Both the position numbers and the translations under genes were made by a program. Positions 650 through 37,818 of a DNA stretch of 37,818 bases are shown in pieces (positions within the stretch are counted from its first letter, which is position 1; each line of letters begins with the position of its first letter). The stretch covers positions 1 through 37,818 of the forward strand of contig JALVVU010000109.1 of NCBI GenBank assembly GCA_027023255.1, read 5' to 3'. Origin of the DNA: Desulfurococcales archaeon (GTDB lineage: Archaea > Thermoproteota > Thermoprotei_A > Sulfolobales > NBVN01). The notes below the pieces were generated by a model that saw only the letters and a list, made by a program, of their open reading frames with translations, did not search any database and was not told the DNA's origin.

Positions 650-2539
650 TCACTCAGGTAGGAGTCCCTCCTCAGCGAGCCACTCAGCAAGCCATTTGAG
701 GCCTAGCTCCTCTAGCTTAGCTCTGGTGGGTCTCCCGTCCTTCCAGCCTCTGACCTTATAGTACTCGTCAAGCATCTCGTTCAGCTTGACGACGTAGCCC
801 TTGCTTGGTCCCTCGGGCATTGGCTCCTCCAGTAACCTCTTGGGTAGCGTGTCGTATTCCCTCCCATCACCGAATGAGAGTACGTTGAATGCTCTCTCAG
901 CGTTGTAGATCCTCTCACCCACAACCTCAATGTCCTTCGCTGTGTACGGTATGCCGGTTACGGCCGAGAGCATTTCAGCGAAGTCCTCAGCCCATAGGGC
1001 GAACGTCGTGAACTTACACACGACTAGCGAGTCAACGACGGCTGACACGTCCTGGAAGTGCTTCACCATTGCTGGCTTACCTTCGGTCTTGAATCTGTCG
1101 ACTAGCTGAGGTACTCCAAGCACTTCAGGCGATATCATGTAGGCCCTTAAGTGGCAGCCTCCGCGGTTGCTGGTGGCGTACGCGAGTCCATGTCCCTGAG
1201 CGCCTCTTGGGTCGTAGGCAGGTAGTTCCTGACCCCTCACAACCATCGCTATGTCTGGTACTCCGTACTTCTTCGCTAGCCTTAACGCTCCCTCCGCTAA
1301 GTCATTACCAATACCTGACCTGTAGGCTGTCCTCCACACCAGCTCGACGATAGCTTCGGGCGTTCCCCATTCTGCCTTTAGACCACGTAGGGCTTCCTTC
1401 GGCACCTTACCCATCTCAACTAGCTCCATGAGCGTTCCTATCGTGTGACCCATGGATATCGTGTCTAGGCCAAGCTCATTGCAGAGGAAGTTAGCCTTGC
1501 AGATCGCCTCCAAGTTATCGGTACCCGTCTGCGCACCAAAGGCCCATATGGTCTCGTACTCGGGTCCTCCGCCCTCACCGCTGAAGGGTGAGTTCGTTAC
1601 CTTAGCATACCTTGCACATCCTATCGGGCATCCCCAGCATATTTCCTCACGCTGCTTGTTCCAGTCCACGAATTCCTTAGCTAGCCTCTCACCGCTTATC
1701 CTCTCTGCTCCTGGGAACACGCCTGTCCTGAAGTTCTTGGTCGGGAATATCCCCGCCTTGTTTATGATGTTCACTAGCACTGCCGTACCTAGCTTAGGCA
1801 GCGCCTCGGCAGTTACTGAGTTCTTCTTTATTTTGTCCATGGCCTTAACAAGGGCGTCCCTTAACTTACTTGGGTCGGCTACTGGCGGCTTGCCGTGACC
1901 CAGTACGGCTATTGCTTTGAGTTTCTTGGATCCCCAAACCGCTCCGTGACCTCCTCTGCCTGCTGCCCTGTTCTTATCATTCATTATTGAGGCTATCCTA
2001 ACTAGGTTCTCTCCGGCTGGTCCTATGCATGCTACCTTGATCTTCTTGGCCTCATCCTTACCTACCTCCGCCGCTAGCTCCTCCTGGATCGCGTCTGTTG
2101 TCGCGTGTACATCCTTACCCCAGAGGTGCTTTGCGTCCCTTATCTCTACCTTCCCATCCTTAATCCAGAGGTATACGGGTTCCTCTGACTTGTCCTCGAT
2201 TATGATGGCGTCGAAGCCAGCGAACTTTAGCTCAGGCCCGAACTTGCCTCCGCTCTGGGAGTCGTGCACGGTGTTCGTGAGCGGGGACTTAGTTACTGAG
2301 GCCCACCTACCGGCTGAAGGTACCCCAGGTATACCCGTTAATGGGCCTGTAGCAACTATGGCCTTATTTGATGGGCTTAGGGGGTCAACCTTCGGGTTGA
2401 CTTCCTTAAGCATCAAATACACTCCAAGTCCTCTTCCACCGATCCAGTTCTTGAGCACCTCCTCAGGAAGTTCCTCAACACTTACTTTACTTGACCAAAG
2501 GTTAACTCTAAGTATTTTGCCTGCATAACCTCCTGGCAA
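650..2539 (-). CDS. aor: Aldehyde:ferredoxin oxidoreductase (tungstopterin AOR family)
   Basis: 629 aa; N-terminal GGYAGKILRVNL...GGRGLG, RAAGRGGHGAVWGSKKLKA, cluster motif EEICWGCPIGC, typical AOR length. TTG start codon at 2537-2539. Confidence 0.96.
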   Translation of the reverse strand: MPGGYAGKILRVNLWSSKVSVEELPEEVLKNWIGGRGLGVYLMLKEVNPKVDPLSPSNKAIVATGPLTGIPGVPSAGRWASVTKSPLTNTVHDSQSGGKFGPELKFAGFDAIIIEDKSEEPVYLWIKDGKVEIRDAKHLWGKDVHATTDAIQEELAAEVGKDEAKKIKVACIGPAGENLVRIASIMNDKNRAAGRGGHGAVWGSKKLKAIAVLGHGKPPVADPSKLRDALVKAMDKIKKNSVTAEALPKLGTAVLVNIINKAGIFPTKNFRTGVFPGAERISGERLAKEFVDWNKQREEICWGCPIGCARYAKVTNSPFSGEGGGPEYETIWAFGAQTGTDNLEAICKANFLCNELGLDTISMGHTIGTLMELVEMGKVPKEALRGLKAEWGTPEAIVELVWRTAYRSGIGNDLAEGALRLAKKYGVPDIAMVVRGQELPAYDPRGAQGHGLAYATSNRGGCHLRAYMISPEVLGVPQLVDRFKTEGKPAMVKHFQDVSAVVDSLVVCKFTTFALWAEDFAEMLSAVTGIPYTAKDIEVVGERIYNAERAFNVLSFGDGREYDTLPKRLLEEPMPEGPSKGYVVKLNEMLDEYYKVRGWKDGRPTRAKLEELGLKWLAEWLAEEGLLPE

Positions 2540-26538: not shown

Positions 26539-26817
26539 GTGGAGGGTTTTGTGAGCCTAGCGCTCTCCTGCCTGATCCCCCTGTACATCGTCGCAATAGT
26601 CCTGTACGCTGTTAGGGTGTTAAAGGGCCCTACGGTGTCGGATAGGGTTTTGGCTGTGGACGCCTTGGGCTTTGACCTGGCGGCGTTCCTTACGATTCTT
26701 TCCGTGCTGTTTAGAGCACCCATAATGGTGACGACCGCGTTAGTACTGGCGCTCTGGATCTACGCCCTAGACATCTACGTAGCAAAGTACCTGGAGTCTA
26801 AGGAGATGGGTGATTGA
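26539..26817 (+). CDS. mrpF: Mrp/Mnh complex subunit F
   Basis: 92 aa; RVLKGPTVSDRVLAVDALG motif, 3 TM. Confidence 0.9.
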   Translation: MEGFVSLALSCLIPLYIVAIVLYAVRVLKGPTVSDRVLAVDALGFDLAAFLTILSVLFRAPIMVTTALVLALWIYALDIYVAKYLESKEMGD

Positions 26818-27196
26818 AATGTTATGGGAGACCGTGTGCTCGGTGGCCGGCCTCATACTCGTGGCGATAGGTGCTTTCTGTGACATAGCGGCAGCCATAG
26901 GGATTAACAGGTTCCCGAATTTCTTTGTTAGGCTCCATGCCGCCACCGTTGGGGCCATAGGTGGTGCTGTGGTACCGGCTTTCGGTGCCGGCCTAATAGC
27001 TCTAGGGTCGCCCGAGTTAGGGAATTACAGGTTCTTCGTTGCCGGCGTTTCCTTCACTACAGGATTAATGATAATGATTTTAGGGCAGGCAGGCGCTCAC
27101 GCATTAGCTAGAGCCACGCTGAAGGCTAAGGCAGCACCTCTTGAGCCATGCGTACATAACGCGTTAAGGAGGAGGGAAGAGGTGAGGGGTGAATGA
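26810..27196 (+). CDS. mrpG: Mrp/Mnh complex subunit G
   Basis: 128 aa; GINRFPNFFVRLHAAT motif. Confidence 0.92.
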   Translation: MIEMLWETVCSVAGLILVAIGAFCDIAAAIGINRFPNFFVRLHAATVGAIGGAVVPAFGAGLIALGSPELGNYRFFVAGVSFTTGLMIMILGQAGAHALARATLKAKAAPLEPCVHNALRRREEVRGE

Positions 27197-27447
27197 TTGA
27201 CCTTATTGCCGCACTCTTGATGGCTGTGGCTGCGGTAACGTCCATAGTGTTCACGTACTTAGCTGTGGTTGAGAAGAACTTAATTCAGGCGGTGGTGTTC
27301 TCGGCTGTTCAGAGCACCATGTACGCACTGATCTACTTCCTCCTAATGGCCCCCGACATCGTGTTGGTCTACCTGCCCGTGGGTGTCGGTATATACCCCG
27401 CCATAATTTTACTCTTAATTAAGAAAACTGATAAGGTGGATGAGTAG
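27193..27447 (+). CDS. DUF4040 / MbhD-like subunit (MrpA C-terminal equivalent)
   Basis: 84 aa; three TM; VEKNLIQAVVFSAVQSTMYALIYFLLMAPDIVL. Confidence 0.85.
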   Translation: MIDLIAALLMAVAAVTSIVFTYLAVVEKNLIQAVVFSAVQSTMYALIYFLLMAPDIVLVYLPVGVGIYPAIILLLIKKTDKVDE

Positions 27448-27449
27448 CC

Positions 27450-28262
27450 ATGAAGGTCACAGATCTTGTCGTTGCGGCCTCGATCGTCGCGCTTGCCCTC
27501 CTGCTTAGTTACGCGATGTTTTTGGGCGGAATAGGGCCGGTACCCGTGAGGTCTGAGTTGAGGACCTTAGCCTTGAACTATATCCTACTAACATACAATC
27601 CCGCGAAGATCATTTACAGCGCTTTAGCTCCCGAAGGGGTCACGGCTATCGTGTGGGACTACAGAGGGCTTGACACGTACTTCGAGACAGCCGTTATGTT
27701 CCTAGCGATAATTTCAGTCGTCGCACTAACACACGGATGTAAGGTGAGGATAGGGCTAGGTAAGGGAGGGATGTCATTAATAGTTAAGACCACCACACGC
27801 ATACTAATGCCACTCATAGTGCTGGCCGGCGTCTCAATAACCATGCACGGATGGCTGACCCCCGGCGGAGGCTTCCAGGGCGGCGCGACAATAGCCGTAG
27901 CTACGGTCCTAGCCCTCGTCACATACTCCATTGACACCCTGGCGAAGCACGGCATACGTAAGAAAATACTCCTAGCGATGAGGAGCACGGGCCTCATAGG
28001 CATAGCGCTAACCGCTGTCGCCCTACTCATTATTGGTCTTGCCGTTGGCGTTAATGCGTACATCTTCCAGAACCAGGAACGCATGGGTTCACCACTAGCG
28101 TTCCCAGCATACTTCAGCGGAACACCTACCGGAGGATCGTTACTTTTCTATAACTTGTTTGAGGCGTTTGCTGTGAGTGCCGGTCTCTCGTTAGCGATAA
28201 TAGTGACGTCTCTCCGGGAGGAGGAGGTTAAGGAGACCTTGAGGGGTGAGGGTGTTGAGTGA
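27450..28262 (+). CDS. MbhE-MnhB fusion (Mrp subunit B with N-terminal MbhE-like part)
   Basis: 270 aa; YRGLDTYFETAVMFLAIISVVAL then ILMPLIVLAGVSITMHGWLTPGGGFQGG. Confidence 0.87.
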   Translation: MKVTDLVVAASIVALALLLSYAMFLGGIGPVPVRSELRTLALNYILLTYNPAKIIYSALAPEGVTAIVWDYRGLDTYFETAVMFLAIISVVALTHGCKVRIGLGKGGMSLIVKTTTRILMPLIVLAGVSITMHGWLTPGGGFQGGATIAVATVLALVTYSIDTLAKHGIRKKILLAMRSTGLIGIALTAVALLIIGLAVGVNAYIFQNQERMGSPLAFPAYFSGTPTGGSLLFYNLFEAFAVSAGLSLAIIVTSLREEEVKETLRGEGVE

Positions 28263-28692
28263 GTTAATCATTCCGTACCTACTGACAGTGGTCTTCGTTT
28301 CCTTCGTGATTAACCTAGTAATAGCTTTGTACGGTATCTTCGCCAGACCGACGCTCGTGAAGAAGATCATAGCGCTGACGATATTCTCTGATAGCCTCAA
28401 TAGCTTAGCCATATTCGTGGGTTACAGGGTAGTTTCAGGGAGAGTCCCGGCACCGCCCGTCGTCGTGAATTACACTAGCCCCCAAGGACCCGCTCAGCTG
28501 GCTAAGGTCACGGTAGATCCATTACCTCAGGCCCTAGTCCTCACAGCCATAGTGATAGGCCTCGCGGTCACGCTCTTCATGGTTAAGGTGACGATGCAGG
28601 TTCATAGGATCTATGGAACGACTAGTGTCCGCAAGCTTGAGCGTATCGAGCACGGCAATAAGGGAGAGGAGGACGAAGGGGTGGTTGAGTGA
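28246..28692 (+). CDS. mnhC: Mrp/Mnh subunit C (NuoK-like)
   Basis: 148 aa; three TM; YGIFARPTLVKKIIALTIFSDSLNSLAIFVGY...DPLPQALVLTAIVIGLAVT. Confidence 0.92.
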   Translation: MRVLSELIIPYLLTVVFVSFVINLVIALYGIFARPTLVKKIIALTIFSDSLNSLAIFVGYRVVSGRVPAPPVVVNYTSPQGPAQLAKVTVDPLPQALVLTAIVIGLAVTLFMVKVTMQVHRIYGTTSVRKLERIEHGNKGEEDEGVVE

Positions 28693-29195
28693 TGAAGGCG
28701 TTAACGTATGTAGGAGCTTTCCTGTTCTTCCTAGCCTTTTACCTGCTATTCTCCGGCTCCGTAAGCTTGTATGACATCACGGTTGGCTGTGTGGCTTCCG
28801 CAATACTTACGGTGCTTTACGCCAGGATAATGTATGGTAGGGATCTGAAGCCCTCTGACATCGCTAAGGTCGGGCGCCTGATCAAGTACTTCTTCTGGTA
28901 CATGTTTGTGGCGGAGCCTAAGGCACATGCAGACGTGATTAAGAGGGCTTTAAGCCCTTCCATGCCCATAAACCCAGGCATAGTTGAGGTTCCCTTCGAC
29001 GTTAAGAGTGACTTCTCGATAACCCTCATAGCAGGGTCAATAACCAACACTCCCGGCACCGTGACTGTTGAGGTCGATAAGGAGAGGAAGGTACTCTACG
29101 TACACTGGATCGACGTTAAGGTTACGGAGCCCGAAGCCGTGCGTGAGCACGTCTCACGTGACTTCGAGAAACACGCGTCACGGATTTGGGGGTGA
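28689..29195 (+). CDS. mnhE: Mrp/Mnh subunit E
   Basis: 168 aa; FAFYLLFSGSVSLYDITVGC-like N-terminus and SITLIAGSITNTPGTVTVEVD...LYVHWIDV. Confidence 0.93.
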   Translation: MMKALTYVGAFLFFLAFYLLFSGSVSLYDITVGCVASAILTVLYARIMYGRDLKPSDIAKVGRLIKYFFWYMFVAEPKAHADVIKRALSPSMPINPGIVEVPFDVKSDFSITLIAGSITNTPGTVTVEVDKERKVLYVHWIDVKVTEPEAVREHVSRDFEKHASRIWG

Positions 29196-29201
29196 TGAGG
29201 T

Positions 29202-30746
29202 TTGGACGTGAACGTGTTTGTAGGCATCCTCCCGCTTTACCTGATCGCTGCCGCGTTCGCCTTACCTGTCTTCACGCTCTTCATCAAGGATAGGCGGTTC
29301 TTCGAGGGGTACGGCATCGTAGCTGCGGGCATAGCATTAGTGATTTCCGCTAAGGTCTTCATGGATGTGACTAGGGAAGGCATACAGAAGTACTACTTCG
29401 GCGGGTTCCCACCACCTCTCGGCATCGCGTACGAGGTTGACAAGATGGGGGCGTTACTGGGGCTTGTGGCGTCCCTCATAGTCTTCATCACCACAGTCTA
29501 CAGCGCGTGGTTCATGAGGGTTAAGGGTGTTGAGTGGTACTACGCGCTACTCCTAGGCATAGAGGCGGGCTCCGTTGGCGTGCTCTACACGGGCGACTTC
29601 TTCAACATCTTCGTCATGCTTGAGGTGCTATCCATAAGCGCGTACGGGCTCGTGTCATTCTACAGGTGGAGGGGTAAGTCCCTCAGCGCCTCCATAGAGT
29701 ACGCCATAGTGGGTTCAGTAGCGACTGGTCTCTACTTCCTCGCGGTGGTCTTCCTTTACGGGGCATTCGGCACGCTTAACTTAGCGGACCTAACCGCGAA
29801 GGCCATGAGTGACGGTGGGTACGTTAACCAGTGGAGCGGGGGGTTATTCGGCAACGCTGTCGTTGCTTCCGCGGTGGCGTTAGCGTTAACGATGTGGACA
29901 ATAACCTTTAAGTCAGCGATCTTCCCGAACTACTTCTGGTTGCCCGACGTCGTGCCTGAGGCACCCACACCAGTCTCAGCAATATTCGTTGCGGTTGCTG
30001 AGGTTCTGGGTGTGTACCTCTTCGTCAGGTTCATGTACACTGTCTTCTCACCACAGAGCCTGCTAAGCGGGGAGTTGAGGACGTACTTCCTAGTGTTCCT
30101 CCACATACTCGGCATAGTTTCCGCATTCATAGGTGCGTTAGTCCTCAACATTCAGCGCGACGCTAAGAAGTTCATAGCGTACAGCACCGTCAACCAGATG
30201 GGCTTCGTCTTCATGGGATTAACGCTAGGCACTAAGGAAGGAGTAGTGGCTGGACTATACCACCTACTCTCAAATTCCTTCGGCGAAGCCCTACTCTTCT
30301 ACTGCGTCGGCGTAGCGATATGGCTTAAGGGCAGGTCATTAACCGATGCGGGGGTGTTAAGACGTAATCCTGTCATCGCGGCGGGTTTAGTAGTAGGTCT
30401 CCTGAACCTCTTCGGATTACCTCCCTTCATGGGGTTCTTCAGCAAGTACATGCTGTTCAAGGCATGCCTTGATAGGGGATACATCGTGAGCGCCGTGCTA
30501 ATCCTAGTCATAACGGGCATATCGTTGATAGGGTACGCAAGGTTCCTACGCGGACTACTCTCCGGACCTTCGGAGGCTGTGCGGAGCAGGAACCTCATAG
30601 TGCCGCTAATTATTGTGGCGTTCATTACCGCAGTGATAGTGTTGCTGGGTGTGGGCTTCGAGTACGTTATACACTACCTTAACGGCGTCGTTAAGATGGC
30701 ATTCGATTCAGGAACATACGCCATGAATGGGGTGTATCCTCCTTGA
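29202..30746 (+). CDS. Mrp/Mnh subunit D-like antiporter subunit (NuoM/N family)
   Basis: 514 aa; GDFFNIFVMLEVLSISAYGLVSF, FKSAIFPNYFWLPDVVPEAPTPVSA, LFGLPPFMGFFSKYMLF. Confidence 0.93.
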   Translation: MDVNVFVGILPLYLIAAAFALPVFTLFIKDRRFFEGYGIVAAGIALVISAKVFMDVTREGIQKYYFGGFPPPLGIAYEVDKMGALLGLVASLIVFITTVYSAWFMRVKGVEWYYALLLGIEAGSVGVLYTGDFFNIFVMLEVLSISAYGLVSFYRWRGKSLSASIEYAIVGSVATGLYFLAVVFLYGAFGTLNLADLTAKAMSDGGYVNQWSGGLFGNAVVASAVALALTMWTITFKSAIFPNYFWLPDVVPEAPTPVSAIFVAVAEVLGVYLFVRFMYTVFSPQSLLSGELRTYFLVFLHILGIVSAFIGALVLNIQRDAKKFIAYSTVNQMGFVFMGLTLGTKEGVVAGLYHLLSNSFGEALLFYCVGVAIWLKGRSLTDAGVLRRNPVIAAGLVVGLLNLFGLPPFMGFFSKYMLFKACLDRGYIVSAVLILVITGISLIGYARFLRGLLSGPSEAVRSRNLIVPLIIVAFITAVIVLLGVGFEYVIHYLNGVVKMAFDSGTYAMNGVYPP

Positions 30747-30805: not shown

Positions 30806-30816
30806 AAATTTTTAAC
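30806..30816 (+). promoter_or_regulatory. Candidate internal TATA box for the hydrogenase half of the cluster
   Basis: AATTTTTAAC-type element inside the 90-bp gap 30747-30836, about 25-30 nt before the GTG start at 30837. Confidence 0.45.
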
Positions 30817-30836
30817 AGAGTACCAATAAAGACAAG

Positions 30837-31904
30837 GTGAGTAGAAGATTGAAGTTCGCATTTCTTTGTAAGGAGAAGGGCTCCGAAGGCCGCGGTAAAG
30901 TAGCGATAGTGGGCGCGGGCCCTGCAGGCCTTGCAGCGGCCGGATACCTTGTGTGCAAGGGTTATGATGTGGAGGTATTCGATAAGTTACCCCTACCCGG
31001 AGGCTTAATGACCTTCGCAATACCATCCTACAGGATCAGGCTCACGACCGTGCTGGAGGGCGTTGAGGATCTCAAGAAGAACTTCGGCGTCCAGTTCCAT
31101 CTATCCACTAAGGTCGTGTGCGGTAAAAGACATGACGAGGGCGACGACTTCGCAAAGAATGAGGTACAGCTGAGCAATCTAGTCAGCGAATTTGATGCTG
31201 TACTGATAGCCACCGGAACCTGGCAGTCTAGGAAGATGAAGATCCCGGGTGAGGACGCTGAGGGTGTTGAGACCGCGCTGGAGTATCTCTTCAAGGTTAG
31301 GGCCCATGAGTACGGTTTAATGCCCGAACCCCCCGTACCGAGGAGGGTCATCGTTGTTGGCGGTGGCCTCTCAGCCGTGGATGCGGCGGAGGTGTCGCTT
31401 GAAAGGGGATCTGAGGTTGTTTACCTGATGTACAGGAGGAGTATCCAGCAGGCACCTGCGGGAGTGTATGAGATAAAGAGGTTGATTAGGAAGGGAGTGA
31501 AGTGGATGGAGCTAGCTAACCCGACGAGGATAATTACCGAGAACGGTAAGGTCAAGGCTGTTGAGGCCATAAGGATGAAGTTGGGTGAGCCTGACGCTAG
31601 CGGCAGGCCAAGACCTGAGCCAATACCTGGAAGCGAGTTCGTTGTCGAGACTGATGCGGTTATTGAGGCGATAGGTGAGTACTCAACCCCACCGATAGGC
31701 GAGGGATGCAGTGAACTAGGCATTGAGGTTGACAGGAAGGGAAGGATTGTGGTCGATGAGAACTTTAGGACGAGTCACCCGAAGGTATTCGCCGCAGGCG
31801 ACGTGGTCACGGGTCCCAGCAAGATAGGGGATGCTTCACTCCTCGGTCTCAGGGCTGCCAAAGCTTTACACCTCGCCCTGAGTAAGGGCTCAACTCGTTT
31901 GTGA
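30837..31904 (+). CDS. GltD/NfnL-like FAD/NAD(P)-binding oxidoreductase lacking N-terminal Fe-S domain
   Basis: 355 aa; FAD motif VAIVGAGPAGLAAAGYL, PGGLMTFAIPSYR, NAD(P) motif VIVVGGGLSAVDAAE, C-terminal FAAGDVVTGPSKIGDASLLGLRAA. Confidence 0.94.
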   Translation: MSRRLKFAFLCKEKGSEGRGKVAIVGAGPAGLAAAGYLVCKGYDVEVFDKLPLPGGLMTFAIPSYRIRLTTVLEGVEDLKKNFGVQFHLSTKVVCGKRHDEGDDFAKNEVQLSNLVSEFDAVLIATGTWQSRKMKIPGEDAEGVETALEYLFKVRAHEYGLMPEPPVPRRVIVVGGGLSAVDAAEVSLERGSEVVYLMYRRSIQQAPAGVYEIKRLIRKGVKWMELANPTRIITENGKVKAVEAIRMKLGEPDASGRPRPEPIPGSEFVVETDAVIEAIGEYSTPPIGEGCSELGIEVDRKGRIVVDENFRTSHPKVFAAGDVVTGPSKIGDASLLGLRAAKALHLALSKGSTRL

Positions 31905-31920
31905 GGGAGGTGAGCAAGGA

Positions 31921-32457
31921 ATGTCCGTACAGTCAGAGGGTAAGGCCTCAAGGAAGGCCGGTCTTCAGGAGTTAAGACTAATAGACTACGAAAGGTGCAT
32001 GGGGTGCGGCACCTGCGAAGCTGTCTGTGGCTTCATTCACGACGACAGGCCCTACATAAAACTGTACGAGTTATACCCCGGCTTGGTGAGGCCAATATCC
32101 TGCTTCCACTGCAGTAAGGCACCCTGCATTGAGGCGTGCCCGACAGGAGCCATGAGCAGGGATCCTGAGACAGGCGCTGTTTACGTCGAAACAACGCGGT
32201 GCATCGGCTGTATGGCATGCCTTTACGCCTGCCCCTTCGGCATACCTGAGTTCTCCAGGGTCTCTAACACCGCTACCAAGTGCGACCTGTGTCGCAAGCT
32301 AATGCATGAAGGCTTAAGACCGGCATGCGCGGCGATGTGCCCTGCGGAGGCGATAGTGGTCGCGCCGCCTGAGGAGGTAGGTAAGGAGGTTAGGGTGAGG
32401 GTCCTTAAGAAGATAGTTTTACCTAAGCTCGAGGCGCTTGAGGAGAGCCGTAAGTAG
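31921..32457 (+). CDS. HycB/HydN/CooF-like 4x[4Fe-4S] ferredoxin
   Basis: 178 aa; ERCMGCGTCEAVC, CFHCSKAPCIEACPTGAM, TRCIGCMACLYACPFG, KCDLCRKLMHEGLRPACAAMCPAEAI. Confidence 0.95.
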   Translation: MSVQSEGKASRKAGLQELRLIDYERCMGCGTCEAVCGFIHDDRPYIKLYELYPGLVRPISCFHCSKAPCIEACPTGAMSRDPETGAVYVETTRCIGCMACLYACPFGIPEFSRVSNTATKCDLCRKLMHEGLRPACAAMCPAEAIVVAPPEEVGKEVRVRVLKKIVLPKLEALEESRK

Positions 32458-32468
32458 CTCCTTAAGCG

Positions 32469-34022
32469 ATGAGGAGAACCGTCATGAATGCACCGTTAAC
32501 GTATGACACGCTTAGGTACGTAGTAATAGCGGTCTCAGCCGCCACCGTGCTAACCGGATCGTACATAAGTTGGAGACATAAGACTGCGGGAGCGTCCCTA
32601 CGCTCGGCAGGGTACTTACTGTTGGCGTCCCTGCCCCTCATATCTACATACCTTTTTGGAGCTCCCTCCCCTATCCAGCTTGTTTCGTACCTCATGATCT
32701 TCATAGCTTCAGCCATATCGCTGATAGTCTCACTGTACACGTCCTCGTACGTCAAGAAGTACGGCACTAATTCCCTCCAGCTATTGATCGACGCGTTCGC
32801 TCTCTCCATAATAGGTGTGTTCGTGGCTAACTACCTACTTGAGTTCGTGCTGTTCTGGTTGCTTGCGGAGGCCATAGGTTTCTTCGTAATAGTGTATGAT
32901 GCCCTAATAGGCAGGGAGACTAGGGCTTGGCGGGCTGGCCTGAGGTACTTAGCCATCTCCATGATCCCCGCTGATGTCGGCTTAATGACTCTGCTGGCCC
33001 TAGCCGGCCTAGGCAGGGCAGTTACCGTACCGATGTTTAACCTCGGCCTCGACCTAAGCAACCAGGTCATAGTGACGCTGGTTGCGTTAGGCTTCATGGC
33101 TAAGGCAGCGATAGCTCCCCTCCACTTCTGGTTGGCTGACGCGCACTCCATAGCGCCGGCGCCGGGTTCCGCCTTGCTCAGCGGTGTCATGGTTAAGATG
33201 GGTGTTTATGCGTTGCTGGCTCTCCCGTACATGGCTAACGTGCTGTCCAGCACCTACTGGATCGTGCTTGCCGTCTTCGGCGCCATCACAACTATCTACG
33301 GTGGTCTGCAGGCGCTAGTGCAGAGTGACATAAAGAGGATACTCGCGTACAGCACCGTATCCCACACCAGCGAGATGGCTATACTCATAGGCCTCTTCCT
33401 GCTCTCAGGGAATGACGTGTTCTTCGCCGCCGTCATAGCGTACATGGTTGCCCACGCTCTCTACAAGGCCGGCCTCTTCATGGACTCCGGCTTCATAGAG
33501 TTCCACCTCCACACGAGGGACATTAATAAGCTAGGATTCGTGTCCAGGATAGCGCCGAGCGAAACCCTAGCGGCGTTACTGGCGGTAATGTCGTTGATAG
33601 GCATCCCGCCCACCATGGGCTTCCTCGCGAAGCTAATCACGCTCCTTGCCCTAGCAGACAACATAATGTTTGGCGTGGTCTACATTGGCGCACTGGCAGT
33701 AATCCTTGCCGGCATGGTCCTAGCGTTGGGTTACGGTGTGAGGTACTTACTCGTTCACTTAGGTTCCGTGGAGAACCCGGAGACCGAGAAACCGGGGAGA
33801 ATCGAGCACGTTATGAGTGAGGCTGTGATGGCTGCTGCGGCCCTAGGCTTGATACTGCCGCTGGGGCTAGCCCCCATAATAGTGAGTAGGTTAGCGATGC
33901 CCGTGCTGTACTTAGTGCTCGGCGTAACGCTAATGATCGTGCTAGTGATCTTAGCAGCATTAAATGATATACTTAAGAGGGGAAGGAGACATACTCCTTG
34001 GTTAGGAGGGGCGGCACCGTGA
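32469..34022 (+). CDS. HycC/HyfB-like (NuoL/M family) antiporter-type hydrogenase membrane subunit
   Basis: 517 aa; FMAKAAIAPLHFWLADAHSIAPAPGSALLSGVMVKMGVYALL; AHALYKAGLFM; SLIGIPPTMGFLAKL. Confidence 0.93.
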   Translation: MRRTVMNAPLTYDTLRYVVIAVSAATVLTGSYISWRHKTAGASLRSAGYLLLASLPLISTYLFGAPSPIQLVSYLMIFIASAISLIVSLYTSSYVKKYGTNSLQLLIDAFALSIIGVFVANYLLEFVLFWLLAEAIGFFVIVYDALIGRETRAWRAGLRYLAISMIPADVGLMTLLALAGLGRAVTVPMFNLGLDLSNQVIVTLVALGFMAKAAIAPLHFWLADAHSIAPAPGSALLSGVMVKMGVYALLALPYMANVLSSTYWIVLAVFGAITTIYGGLQALVQSDIKRILAYSTVSHTSEMAILIGLFLLSGNDVFFAAVIAYMVAHALYKAGLFMDSGFIEFHLHTRDINKLGFVSRIAPSETLAALLAVMSLIGIPPTMGFLAKLITLLALADNIMFGVVYIGALAVILAGMVLALGYGVRYLLVHLGSVENPETEKPGRIEHVMSEAVMAAAALGLILPLGLAPIIVSRLAMPVLYLVLGVTLMIVLVILAALNDILKRGRRHTPWLGGAAP

Positions 34023-34366
34023 GTCATGTCCGTGCCAACTTACTTTACAGGTTATCCAGACTCGTTAACAGGATGCTAGCTAGGACAGCCCCTCTCTCTA
34101 GGTCTCTTAGGAAAGCCCTCCTAGAGTTAGCACAGGAGGATAGATCCAAGGGAGGCAAGGGTTCCTCACTCCTTGAGAAAGTCGTGAACCTTCCCGGTAG
34201 GTGGGAAGGTCTCGAGTACTACGTTGTTAACGCATTACGGGGCACGGCCGGAGGGATCACGTCCTTCCAGAGCTCCATTGAGAAGTCATTCGCCCTCGCC
34301 TCCTTGCTTGCGGGCGTCCTAACCGTGGTTAGCTTAATGGTTTTGGTGATCGTGCATGTATCTTGA
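34019..34366 (+). CDS. Small subunit resembling the detached C-terminal lateral-helix/TM part of HycC/HyfB (MbhI-like position)
   Basis: Amphipathic charged N-terminus then one TM (SFALASLLAGVLTVVSLMVLVIVHV); GTGA 4-nt overlap with upstream stop. Confidence 0.7.
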   Translation: MSHVRANLLYRLSRLVNRMLARTAPLSRSLRKALLELAQEDRSKGGKGSSLLEKVVNLPGRWEGLEYYVVNALRGTAGGITSFQSSIEKSFALASLLAGVLTVVSLMVLVIVHVS

Positions 34367-35213
34367 AATACTCTTGGCAACCGCCCTAACGGTTGCCGGG
34401 GTGGTGCTCGCCCCAATATATGATTCGCTAGAGCGGAAAATTAAGGCTAGACTGCACTCTAGGGTCGGCCCACCAATACTTCAGACGTGGTACGACGTGC
34501 TTAAGCTGCTGGCGAAGGAGTTAGTAATACCTGAGGGAGGGTACTTCACGGCCGCTGTAGTGCTTACGGAGCTGTTCCTCTCGATAGCTCTGCTAGTGTC
34601 CGTGAGTTTCCTGCTATTCTTCCAGTCGCTAACGATGTACGTCCTCGTCGCTGTCTTCATATCGGCGCTAAGTGCCGCCACACTTGTGAAGTCCGTGACG
34701 CAGAACAACCTATTCTCAATCATAGGTGGCTTCCGGGAATACTCAGTAGTGCTTAGTGCGGAGCCATTCCTCATACTGCTCGTACTGTTGATAGGGGCTA
34801 GGGGCGTGACTGACTTAAAGAGCTTGATTGGGTTAGCACCCGTGGTGCTAACGACGTACGTCATGACCGCACGAATACCCTTCGACATAGCTGAGGCTGA
34901 ACCCGAGATAGCTTCAGGAATAATGATAGAGTTATCAGGACCTCTCCTAGCCGCTAATGAGTTATCCCTCCTAACACGAAGGTACGTCATGGCGGCATTA
35001 CCAGCGTACCTCTTCCTCCCATGGCTCATTGCGAACCCCTTACTAAGGGTCGGGTTAGGGCTCGCCTTAACACTACTGACTTGGGTTATCTTCGCCGTTG
35101 TGGCCGTCCTGCTGGGCAGGACTAGGGCTGCCGTAATGCTTAAGGGAACCACGGTCGCCGCTCTCACGTTAACCTTACTATTCATAATTGTGGAGAGTGT
35201 TCCTTATGGGTGA
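34356..35213 (+). CDS. HycD/MbhM-like (NuoH family) membrane subunit
   Basis: 285 aa; YDSLERKIKARLHSRVGPPILQTWYDVLKLLAKE; RIPFDIAEAEPEIASGIMIELSGPLLA. Confidence 0.96.
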   Translation: MYLEILLATALTVAGVVLAPIYDSLERKIKARLHSRVGPPILQTWYDVLKLLAKELVIPEGGYFTAAVVLTELFLSIALLVSVSFLLFFQSLTMYVLVAVFISALSAATLVKSVTQNNLFSIIGGFREYSVVLSAEPFLILLVLLIGARGVTDLKSLIGLAPVVLTTYVMTARIPFDIAEAEPEIASGIMIELSGPLLAANELSLLTRRYVMAALPAYLFLPWLIANPLLRVGLGLALTLLTWVIFAVVAVLLGRTRAAVMLKGTTVAALTLTLLFIIVESVPYG

Positions 35214-36903
35214 GCAGGGCAGGTACCTGCCGGAATGTCCTGAAATGAGTGAGGTAGTACGTAAGCTTACTGAGGAGTATGGCGGGCACGTGATTTTCTC
35301 TCGGGAGTCTGAGGTCTACATTGAGGTGCCGCGGCATGAGCTGAAGGATGTCGCTAAGTACCTCTACAGCTCGGGGGCGTTCTTAAAGACCTGCGCGGCC
35401 GTTGATGAGCGCCCACTCAACCGTTCCTTCGCGCTGTACCACATATTCGGCATGGATTCGAAGGGTTACGATGTGATAGTGAAGGTGAGCGCCCCGGAGG
35501 ATGACGCCTGGGTGCCCAGCACAGTCGACGTGGTTCCGGCAGCGGATTGGTGCGAGCTTGAAGCACGCGACATGGTGGGAATCGAGCTCAAAGGTAGGAG
35601 GCTAGTTCGCAGGTTAGTCCTTCCTGAGGACTGGCCTGAAGACATACACCCGCTCAGGAAGGAAGTTCCCCACGATTTCAGGCCACCATCAGTTAAGGCG
35701 GAATCCGAGTTCCGCCCGCCTGAGAGGGGCATACCTATAGGGCCGTATCACCCAGTGCTTCACGAACCCGAGTACTTCGAACTCCTCGTTGAGGGGGAGA
35801 CCGTAGTCGACGTTTACTACAGAGGCTTCCACGTCCACAGGGGCATTGAGAAGCTAGGTGAGTCCCCGAGGTTCACGTATCAGAAGATACCGTTCCTAGC
35901 TGAGAGGATCTGCGGCATATGCGGGTTCGTGCACTCAACCTGCGCCATAATGGCTATGGAGAAAGCCGCCGGAATCAGGCCGCCGGAGAGGGCTGAGTTC
36001 ATTAGGACGATCGTGCTTGAGCTTGAGAGGATCCACAGTCACCTGCTCTGGGTCGGTGTCGCGGCACACGTCCTAGGTTACGACGCGGGCTTCATGCACA
36101 CATGGAGGGTCAGGGAACCAGTAATGATTCTCTCCGAACTCATAACGGGCAGCAGGAAGACGTACGGCTTAAACCTAGTGGGTGGCGTTAGGAGAGACAT
36201 AGACAAGGACAAAATGGAGAAGATCATGAAGACTCTAGACAGGGTTGAGAAGGAGTTTAAGGAGCTAGCTAACCTCCTCGTCTCCGTACCCCAGATACGT
36301 AGGAGGGCGCAGGGCACTGGCGTGCTAACCAGGTCTGAGGCTAGGGCTTTAAGCGTCGTCGGGCCGGTAGCGAGGGCTTCAGGCCTTTACCGTGATGTCA
36401 GGAAGGACTACCCATACTTAGCGTATAAGGAGGCATCCTTCAAGGTCCCGCTCTACACCGAGGGCGATAACCTAGCTAGGGTGCTTGTTAGGGTGGAGGA
36501 GGTCTTCGAGAGCATCAGCATAATAAAGCAGTTACTGGATAAGCTACCTGGAGGCCCTATAATGCATGAGAAGTGCTCAGCAATAATACCTGTGGACGAG
36601 CTAATACCTCCCGGGAAGTACGCCGTAGCTGCTATCGAGGCGCCGCGTGGTGAGGACGTCCACTTCCTAATGACTGGGGAGGGCAGGCCTTACAGGTGGA
36701 GGGTTAGGGCCCCCACCTACCAGAACATACCTGCGTTGAGGCCCATGCTCAGAGGCGATCCCTTAGCCGACGCACCATTAACGATCGCCAGCATAGATCC
36801 TTGTTTCTCGTGCACTGACAGGGCCCTCGTGATCGACGTGAGGACCGGGAGGGCCCGGACGATTAAGCTATGGGATGGAGGTGTCGGTACGTGTCGATTA
36901 TGA
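35206..36903 (+). CDS. HycE-like fused [NiFe]-hydrogenase large subunit (NuoC + NuoD domains)
   Basis: N-terminal 30-kDa-like domain, then ERICGICGFVHSTC (L1) and C-terminal DPCFSCTDR (L2): all four Ni ligands present. ATG 35206 overlaps the upstream TGA. Confidence 0.95.
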   Translation: MGEQGRYLPECPEMSEVVRKLTEEYGGHVIFSRESEVYIEVPRHELKDVAKYLYSSGAFLKTCAAVDERPLNRSFALYHIFGMDSKGYDVIVKVSAPEDDAWVPSTVDVVPAADWCELEARDMVGIELKGRRLVRRLVLPEDWPEDIHPLRKEVPHDFRPPSVKAESEFRPPERGIPIGPYHPVLHEPEYFELLVEGETVVDVYYRGFHVHRGIEKLGESPRFTYQKIPFLAERICGICGFVHSTCAIMAMEKAAGIRPPERAEFIRTIVLELERIHSHLLWVGVAAHVLGYDAGFMHTWRVREPVMILSELITGSRKTYGLNLVGGVRRDIDKDKMEKIMKTLDRVEKEFKELANLLVSVPQIRRRAQGTGVLTRSEARALSVVGPVARASGLYRDVRKDYPYLAYKEASFKVPLYTEGDNLARVLVRVEEVFESISIIKQLLDKLPGGPIMHEKCSAIIPVDELIPPGKYAVAAIEAPRGEDVHFLMTGEGRPYRWRVRAPTYQNIPALRPMLRGDPLADAPLTIASIDPCFSCTDRALVIDVRTGRARTIKLWDGGVGTCRL

Positions 36904-37400
36904 AGCTACTCAGCATAGCGGCTAAGGCTAAGGTAGTCACTAGGAGGTACCCATTCGAACCCCCCGTAGTTACTGAGGGGTTCAGGGGTAAGATTGAGGT
37001 CGACCCTAAGCTCTGCTGGGGCTGTGGCGTATGCACTAGGATATGCCCGCCCAACGCCTTGACGCTTAAGAAGCGGGAGGACGGCACCCTAGTGCTTTCG
37101 TACTTCATGGGTAGGTGCATATTCTGCGGCATGTGCGCTGAGGTATGCCCGCGGGGAGCGATAACTGTTACGAAGGAGTTCGAGCTCGCGTCACTGACTG
37201 CGGAAGACTTGGTTAGGGACGTTAAGCACGACGTGGTTAGGTGCAGGATTTGCGGGCGCGTCATAGGCCCTACCGTGGAGATAAGGGAAGCGACCAAGAG
37301 CGTGGGCGGTGCAGAAGCCAAGTACTACGACCTCTGCCCTGAGTGCCGTAAGCTCGTGGTTGCCCGCGGAATAATGACTAAGGTGGGTGTTAGGCCTTGA
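36891..37400 (+). CDS. HycF/MbhN-like (NuoI family) 2x[4Fe-4S] subunit with C-terminal Cys4 knuckle
   Basis: CWGCGVCTRICPPNA, CIFCGMCAEVCPRGA, then CRICGRVIGP...YYDLCPECRK. Start GTG 36891 or ATG 36900. Confidence 0.93.
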   Translation: MSIMKLLSIAAKAKVVTRRYPFEPPVVTEGFRGKIEVDPKLCWGCGVCTRICPPNALTLKKREDGTLVLSYFMGRCIFCGMCAEVCPRGAITVTKEFELASLTAEDLVRDVKHDVVRCRICGRVIGPTVEIREATKSVGGAEAKYYDLCPECRKLVVARGIMTKVGVRP

Positions 37401-37818
37401 GCGGGGACGGCTCGAAACTCCTGGCTAAGGCCCTCACCAGGCTAAAGAGAAGTATATGGGTGTTCCACCTTAATACAGGGTCCTGCAATGGTTGCGACAT
37501 AGAGGTTCTGGACGCGCTAACACCTTACTTCGACGTCGAGAGGTTCGGCATAAAGCTAGTTGGTTCCCCGAGACACGCTGACGTCTTCCTCATGACTGGT
37601 CCCGTCACTCGCGAAACCCTGCCTAAAGTGTTAAGGGCGATTGAATCCATGCCCAGACCCCGCCTGATCCTAGCCCTAGGGTCATGCGCCTGTGGGGGCG
37701 GGATCTGGTGGGACACGTACTCCACGATAGGCGGGTACGGGAAACTCAAGGAAATACTGGAGAGGAGAGGTGTCGTAGTCGACCGCGTAGCGTACGTGCC
37801 GGGATGCCCCGTCAGGCC
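37397..37818 (+). CDS. HycG/MbhJ-like (NuoB family) [NiFe]-hydrogenase small subunit, partial
   Basis: Manual translation: HLNTGSCNGCDIEVLDALTPYFDVERFG...LALGSCACGGGIWW...YVPGCPVRP; TTG start overlapping upstream TGA; runs off the window. Confidence 0.93.
   Translation, partial: MSGDGSKLLAKALTRLKRSIWVFHLNTGSCNGCDIEVLDALTPYFDVERFGIKLVGSPRHADVFLMTGPVTRETLPKVLRAIESMPRPRLILALGSCACGGGIWWDTYSTIGGYGKLKEILERRGVVVDRVAYVPGCPVR

Follow-up and report, generated by a model that had tools for sequence, protein, structure and literature searches.

The arrangement closest to the one studied here was described in 2010 in the genome paper of Thermosphaera aggregans, where genes Tagg_0050-0059 were assigned to a 'dehydrogenase-linked MBX complex' in which a sudA-like gene replaces fdhA and which was proposed to oxidise NADPH, either protons or sulfur accepting the electrons (PMC3035292). 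One year earlier, Smar_1055 had been noted beside the corresponding cluster of Staphylothermus marinus (PMC2678158). The clusters of these two organisms and of Desulfurococcus kamchatkensis resemble the locus presented here: they are related to formate hydrogenlyase clusters and combine a sudA-like flavoprotein with an FHL/MBX-like hydrogenase. A second precedent is biochemical. Fdh3 of Thermococcus onnurineus NA1 was purified as Fdh3A, Fdh3B (39.1 kDa) and the Fe-S proteins Fdh3G1 and Fdh3G2; it reduces NADP+ with formate alone and strongly prefers NADP+, and Fdh3B residues R204-R205 are held responsible for the recognition of the NADP 2'-phosphate (PMC8965080).

We analysed a stretch of 37,818 nucleotides from a Desulfurococcales archaeon (contig JALVVU010000109.1), called here the window, in which a flavoprotein gene and a ferredoxin gene stand beside an Mrp module and a [NiFe] hydrogenase (Table 1). 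The window proteins share about 50-58% identity with their Desulfurococcaceae orthologues. A full upstream Mrp module is found in the window and in S. marinus, whereas T. aggregans and D. kamchatkensis were reported without it (PMC3035292). Neither the pair nor the idea of its link to NADPH is new, and the proposal made in a previous sequence-only reading of this DNA is a rediscovery of that of 2010; what is new here is the evidence from gene fusions, from an exchange of input modules, from a conserved Cys quartet and from orthology with Fdh3. No published activity test of the hydrogenase-linked pair was found in the open-access literature. We consider it likely that the pair constitutes an Fdh3B/Fdh3G2-type NADP(H) module attached to an FHL-type, Mrp-associated [NiFe] hydrogenase, where it would replace a formate dehydrogenase (FDH) or CO dehydrogenase (CODH) input.

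Table 1. Features of the window around the flavoprotein-ferredoxin pair.
Feature	Positions	Strand	Basis or remark
Mrp-type cation/proton antiporter module	26539..30746	+	Upstream of the pair; ORFs and profile matches
TATA-like AAAATTTTTAA followed by GGTGA Shine-Dalgarno core	30806..30840	+	Sequence
PRK12770-type GltD/NfnL-like flavoprotein	30837..31904	+	ORF list, profile match, AlphaFold2 model, structure search
Four-cluster HycB/CooF-like ferredoxin	31921..32457	+	ORF list, profile and structure matches, Cys count
Antiporter-like membrane subunit, MbhH/HyfB-NuoLM type	32469..34022	+	Profile matches
Small ORF of 122 aa, overlapping both neighbours	33998..34366	+	Without family match
NuoH/HycD/MbhM-like membrane subunit	34356..35213	+	Profile matches
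HycE-type NuoC-NuoD fused [NiFe] hydrogenase large subunit	35188..36903	+	RICGIC and DPCFSC intact
HycF-like 2x[4Fe-4S] subunit with C-terminal quartet C125/C128/C156/C159	36870..37400	+	Proposed ferredoxin docking site
HycG/NuoB-like small subunit	37397..37816	+	Cut by the window end

Both ORFs lie where the sequence-only reading had placed them, and the succession it described, a flavoprotein with FAD and NAD(P) sites, then a 16-Cys ferredoxin, then an intact [NiFe] hydrogenase, is confirmed. That reading had also presented the pair as an insertion between Mrp and hydrogenase. The position is correct for the window and is not conserved, as the pair stands first or last in other clusters. Only 16 nt separate the flavoprotein from the ferredoxin gene and 11 nt the latter from the antiporter gene, and the hydrogenase genes that follow overlap one another; between the Mrp module and the flavoprotein gene lie 90 nt, which contain the TATA-like AAAATTTTTAA. 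From this spacing, the pair appears to open the hydrogenase operon rather than to be inserted, and the TATA-like element with its GGTGA core is the probable start of a flavoprotein-ferredoxin-hydrogenase transcription unit. The archaeal Shine-Dalgarno core GGTGA at 30836 overlaps the GTG at 30837 and, since homologues begin with M-K-F-x-F-x-C at TTG 30849, this TTG is probably the true start of the flavoprotein.

Over its full length, the flavoprotein matches NCBIfam NF009409/PRK12770, a family titled putative glutamate synthase subunit beta (476.8 bits against a curated cut-off of 343 bits, covering positions 3-352 of 360). It carries FAD and NADP(H) Rossmann motifs and the sequence Y199-R200-R201, whose two arginines are invariant in flavoprotein alignment A1. 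The absence of the N-terminal Fe-S domain, which the sequence-only reading had suspected, was borne out by the domain search, where no Fer4_20-type match appeared in the flavoprotein, and by alignment to the GltD, NfnL and AegA models, of which only the C-terminal part is covered, starting from the FAD domain (model position 126 or later). It does not belong to GltD proper: its match to TIGR01318 begins at model position 142, Fer4_20 is missing, and the operon has no GltB. The AlphaFold2 model (pLDDT 91.6) has as its nearest solved structure 5jca_L, the NADP(H)-bound large subunit of Pyrococcus NfnI; the alignment spans residues 148-472 of 5jca_L only and no NfnS-like gene is found among the neighbours, which places the protein outside NfnL/SudA. 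Two cysteines of the flavoprotein, C11 (30867-30869) and C40 (30954-30956), are both present in 87 homologues and both absent in 54, never singly; they may form a disulfide or a shared metal site, although their co-occurrence is confounded by descent.

The ferredoxin gene, preceded by GGAGGTGAG, encodes a protein with exactly 16 Cys, arranged as four 4-Cys motifs; this protein is similar to HycB3 of HDCR, HycB, AorA and DmsB-type subunits. The sequence-only reading had suggested that this neighbour supplies in trans the Fe-S domain that the flavoprotein lacks. Natural fusions support the suggestion: in four loci adjoining a tungsten AOR, flavoprotein and ferredoxin are fully fused into a protein of 530-535 aa (L064, L065, L069, L071), and a fifth fusion (L096) is cut by a contig end.

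The hydrogenase next to the pair has a large subunit whose best PDB match is E. coli HycE (7z0s_E, 447.6 bits, compared with 248.7 for Pyrococcus MbhL) and which keeps both Ni-ligand CxxC motifs, RICGIC and DPCFSC; by these sequence criteria it is a formate-hydrogenlyase-type group 4 [NiFe] enzyme. No FdhF-like ORF was found in the window ORF lists, and the hydrogenase cluster continues past the 3' end of the window. The alignment of the HycF-like subunit to HycF (7z0s_F, 106.9 bits) extends through the C-terminal Cys quartet, and the match of this subunit to MbhN of MBH is restricted to the ferredoxin part. In E. coli, the quartet-bearing extension of HycF contacts HycB (PMC9474812). The quartet is full in 22 of the 24 clusters with a HycB-like ferredoxin and degenerate in the other two, and it is found in none of the 14 clusters without such a ferredoxin, an association (Fisher p about 1e-8) in which the quartet-bearing enzymes all belong to one clade and so are not independent samples. 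We propose, from this comparative analysis, that the ferredoxin would dock on the quartet extension of the HycF-like subunit.

A further line of evidence comes from hydrogenases of the same type that carry a different input. In the window's genus, a further hydrogenase of this type (G378) carries CooS and a CooF-like ferredoxin instead of the flavoprotein; the window's own genome has a counterpart of this CODH-linked cluster, situated on a short contig (L204). Likewise, same-type hydrogenases with a CooS-like protein and a CooF-like ferredoxin are present in three other genomes (G326, G342, G143); the CooS-like proteins score 769.6 bits (L206) and 724.3 bits (L222) against TIGR01702. In the large-subunit tree, the CODH-linked L222 clusters with the window and other flavoprotein-linked hydrogenases (99*). 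Since CooS/CooF are exchanged on the same hydrogenase type, the flavoprotein stands where the catalytic input subunit would be.

Of 400 genomes of the phylum, 98 encode PRK12770 proteins that score above the cut-off. Most of these flavoproteins have no nearby four-cluster ferredoxin, and none of the evaluable flavoprotein-only loci has a four-cluster HycB-like ferredoxin, divergent ones included, within 4 kb. Those of Thermoproteota and relatives that are paired with an adjacent ferredoxin form a single 31-row clade (98*) comprising 23 hydrogenase loci, six loci beside a tungsten AOR and two with neither. The AOR branch is nested within the hydrogenase-linked clade, as sister to L059/L062 (95*), and for this reason the AOR association is derived. 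Altogether, about 30 loci combine the pair with one and the same type of hydrogenase, and so many repetitions of the arrangement argue that it is not due to chance; flavoprotein, ferredoxin and hydrogenase also stand together in L035. Ferredoxins similar to that of the window (at least 49% identity) were found in 26 of 30 genomes tested, 25 of them with an FHL-type hydrogenase. The complete genome G044 (L034) has an intact pair without an FHL-type hydrogenase, which is present in its close relative G155, and in G334 the flavoprotein gene is far from the hydrogenase and ferredoxin genes. The co-occurrence with hydrogenases, which the sequence-only reading had proposed to check, thus stands, and it extends to FDH, CODH, AOR and isolated pairs; as that reading had named wide occurrence outside hydrogenase loci as evidence against itself, the lack of hydrogenase specificity counts partly against it.

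Other arrangements were seen around these genes. The window itself encodes a tungsten AOR (650-2539, minus strand) without a flavoprotein of its own, 73-74% identical to the AORs beside the pair in L095 and L096; no second close copy of the flavoprotein was found in the window genome, so the pair might also serve this AOR. In two stretches (L101:10001-14572 and L105:10001-14794), a PRK12770 flavoprotein akin to the paired clade lies directly 5' of NuoL/NuoM-like antiporter genes, and neither a HycB-like ferredoxin nor a hydrogenase was found in them. Another PRK12770 flavoprotein (L084:9069-12309) lies 256 bp 3' of the gene for a classical [NiFe] hydrogenase large subunit, on the same strand. 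In Dehalococcoidia (L122, L123), a related flavoprotein domain is located within a group 4 hydrogenase operon, between the small and large subunit genes, and no HycB-like ferredoxin was found in these bacterial operons.

Orthologues in Thermococcaceae connect the pair with Fdh3. A flavoprotein 53-57% identical to that of the window is encoded in 21 of 40 genomes and is paired with the ferredoxin in the fetched loci. The pair accompanies Mrp and an FHL-type hydrogenase in eight loci (L099, L253, L254, L256, L257, L258, L261, L264), FDH in three (L252, L255, L259) and CODH in three (L260, L262, L263), and has none of the hydrogenase, FDH or CODH linkages in seven (L241, L243, L245, L247, L248, L251, L265). 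The three CODH-linked pairs are also beside a CooF-like ferredoxin, with hydrogenase absent from the stretch, and their clusters are predicted from gene content to encode a CO:NADP+ oxidoreductase. The order in L259, on one strand, is formate transporter, FDH, HycB-like Fe-S protein, quartet-bearing Fe-S protein, flavoprotein and HycB-like Fe-S protein, the same composition as the T. onnurineus fdh3 cluster TON_0538-0543. Its flavoprotein (39.0 kDa) and its terminal HycB-like protein are 53% and 45% identical to the window flavoprotein and ferredoxin, respectively, and R204-R205 of Fdh3B correspond to R200-R201 in the window. This orthology is based on gene order and identity in Thermococcaceae genomes, the T. 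onnurineus sequence itself lying outside the comparison. The window thus contains the three elements of an Fdh3B/Fdh3G-type module: a flavoprotein devoid of Fe-S domain, the Arg-Arg motif and an adjoining 16-Cys HycB-like ferredoxin. L119, also considered as an fdh3 locus, was rejected, as the flavoprotein gene stands alone there next to a deoxyhypusine-synthase-like gene. In agreement with the sequence-only reading, which had suggested an NAD(P)H input module, both window proteins have orthologues in Fdh3-type clusters, the purified Fdh3 reduces NADP+ and the HycF-like quartet is kept.

An alternative that we regard as unlikely is that the pair acts as a freestanding, FNOR-like NADPH:ferredoxin oxidoreductase for soluble ferredoxin and several enzymes, its adjacency to the hydrogenase reflecting co-regulation. 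It would account for the copies that stand alone in the seven Thermococcaceae loci and in G044 without an FHL-type hydrogenase, for the closest structures being Nfn/Xfn ferredoxin:NADP oxidoreductases, and for a window AOR that has no flavoprotein of its own. The standalone Thermococcaceae copies are, however, trios of a small ferredoxin with a HycF-type Cys quartet, the flavoprotein and the HycB-like ferredoxin, as if they brought their own docking partner; several of these trios are divergent from cytosolic NADPH hydrogenase I genes. Tight operon packing, natural fusions, the exact CooS/CooF swap and quartet conservation point instead to a complex.

Two other readings seem highly improbable to us. 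An electron-bifurcating or confurcating module, in which FAD would split electrons among NADPH, ferredoxin and hydrogenase, is suggested by the nearest structural kin, the large subunits of bifurcating NfnI, NfnABC and StnABC, but the operon has neither NfnS nor a second flavin subunit, the flavoprotein lacks the N-terminal Fe-S domain seen in NfnL, the clusters form a single linear chain, and Fdh3 works with formate alone as donor (PMC8965080). As for sulfur reduction by the pair or the complex, published as a proposal for S. marinus (PMC2678158) and compatible with two Cys conserved throughout the flavoprotein family, it has against it the HycE-like large subunit with both [NiFe] CxxC motifs, a best family match other than NSR/CoA-disulfide reductase, a four-cluster ferredoxin paired or fused with the flavoprotein, unlike NSR, and orthologues that cluster with FDH and CODH rather than with sulfur genes.

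The arrangement is largely explained, and from sequence comparison the putative function of the hydrogenase-linked pair as an Fdh3-type NADP(H) module for the hydrogenase appears well supported. Judging from fold and motifs, and from the NADP use measured in the homologous Fdh3, NADPH would bind the flavoprotein and reduce its FAD, which would hand on single electrons to the ferredoxin with its four [4Fe-4S] clusters; as the natural fusions suggest, these would stand in for the N-terminal Fe-S domain. By analogy with the E. coli FHL structure and given the conserved quartet, the ferredoxin would dock on the HycF-like subunit, whose two clusters, followed by that of the HycG-like subunit, would carry electrons to the [NiFe] site. 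The net reaction would be NADPH + H+ <-> NADP+ + H2, that of an 'NADPH hydrogenlyase'. The standard potential of NADPH is roughly -320 mV, and that of the H+/H2 couple, computed for pH 7 and 80 C, comes to about -490 mV under 1 bar of H2 and -350 mV under 10 Pa. By this calculation, making H2 from NADPH is energetically unfavourable under 1 bar of H2 and comes close to equilibrium only when H2 is at about 10 Pa or lower. The system may therefore serve NADPH disposal at low H2, be driven by an ion gradient through the Mrp/antiporter arm, or run in reverse. Reversal would mean H2-dependent NADP+ reduction, and the anatomy allows either direction equally. More tentatively, as an idea to which we give slightly less than an even chance, the complex might be an ion-translocating NADPH hydrogenlyase coupled to a Na+ or H+ gradient, whose detachable plug would be common to hydrogenase, CODH, FDH and AOR. 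To our knowledge, no enzyme has been shown to link the oxidation of NADPH to H2 while translocating ions in such a way.

If the hydrogenase exchanges electrons with NADP(H), these peptide- and sugar-fermenting hyperthermophiles would possess a membrane path linking NADPH and H2 in addition to the ferredoxin-driven MBH. An input that can be swapped among formate, CO and NADPH on one hydrogenase type also offers a working picture of how complex I might have acquired an NADH-oxidising arm. In addition, a portable plug of this kind could in principle link metal enzymes to NADPH at high temperature.

Compared with known systems, the locus shares different parts with each of them. AegA/YgfT (PRK12769/PRK12809) likewise combine a HycB-like and a GltD-like domain in one unit, although the intervening region of AegA (about model positions 158-327) is missing in the window and the domain order is reversed in the archaeal fusion. 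The parallel to AorA/AorC of Aromatoleum AOR is functional only: AorA (8c0z_C) matches the ferredoxin, and AorC was not among the 60 best hits of the flavoprotein. E. coli formate hydrogenlyase-1 has the HycE-type large subunit, the quartet-bearing HycF and the HycB-like ferredoxin (PMC9474812); its input is FdhF instead of the flavoprotein, and in the window Mrp genes adjoin. Archaeal CODH-ECH clusters, with CooS/CooF and hydrogenase, have a common hydrogenase chassis and a HycB/CooF-like ferredoxin, with CO dehydrogenase in place of the flavoprotein. Finally, Fdh3 shares with the window a flavoprotein of about 39 kDa, Fe-S proteins and the Arg-Arg NADP motif, and orthologues of the window proteins are found in clusters of its composition; its catalytic partner is a soluble tungsten formate dehydrogenase, whereas in the window it is a membrane [NiFe] hydrogenase.
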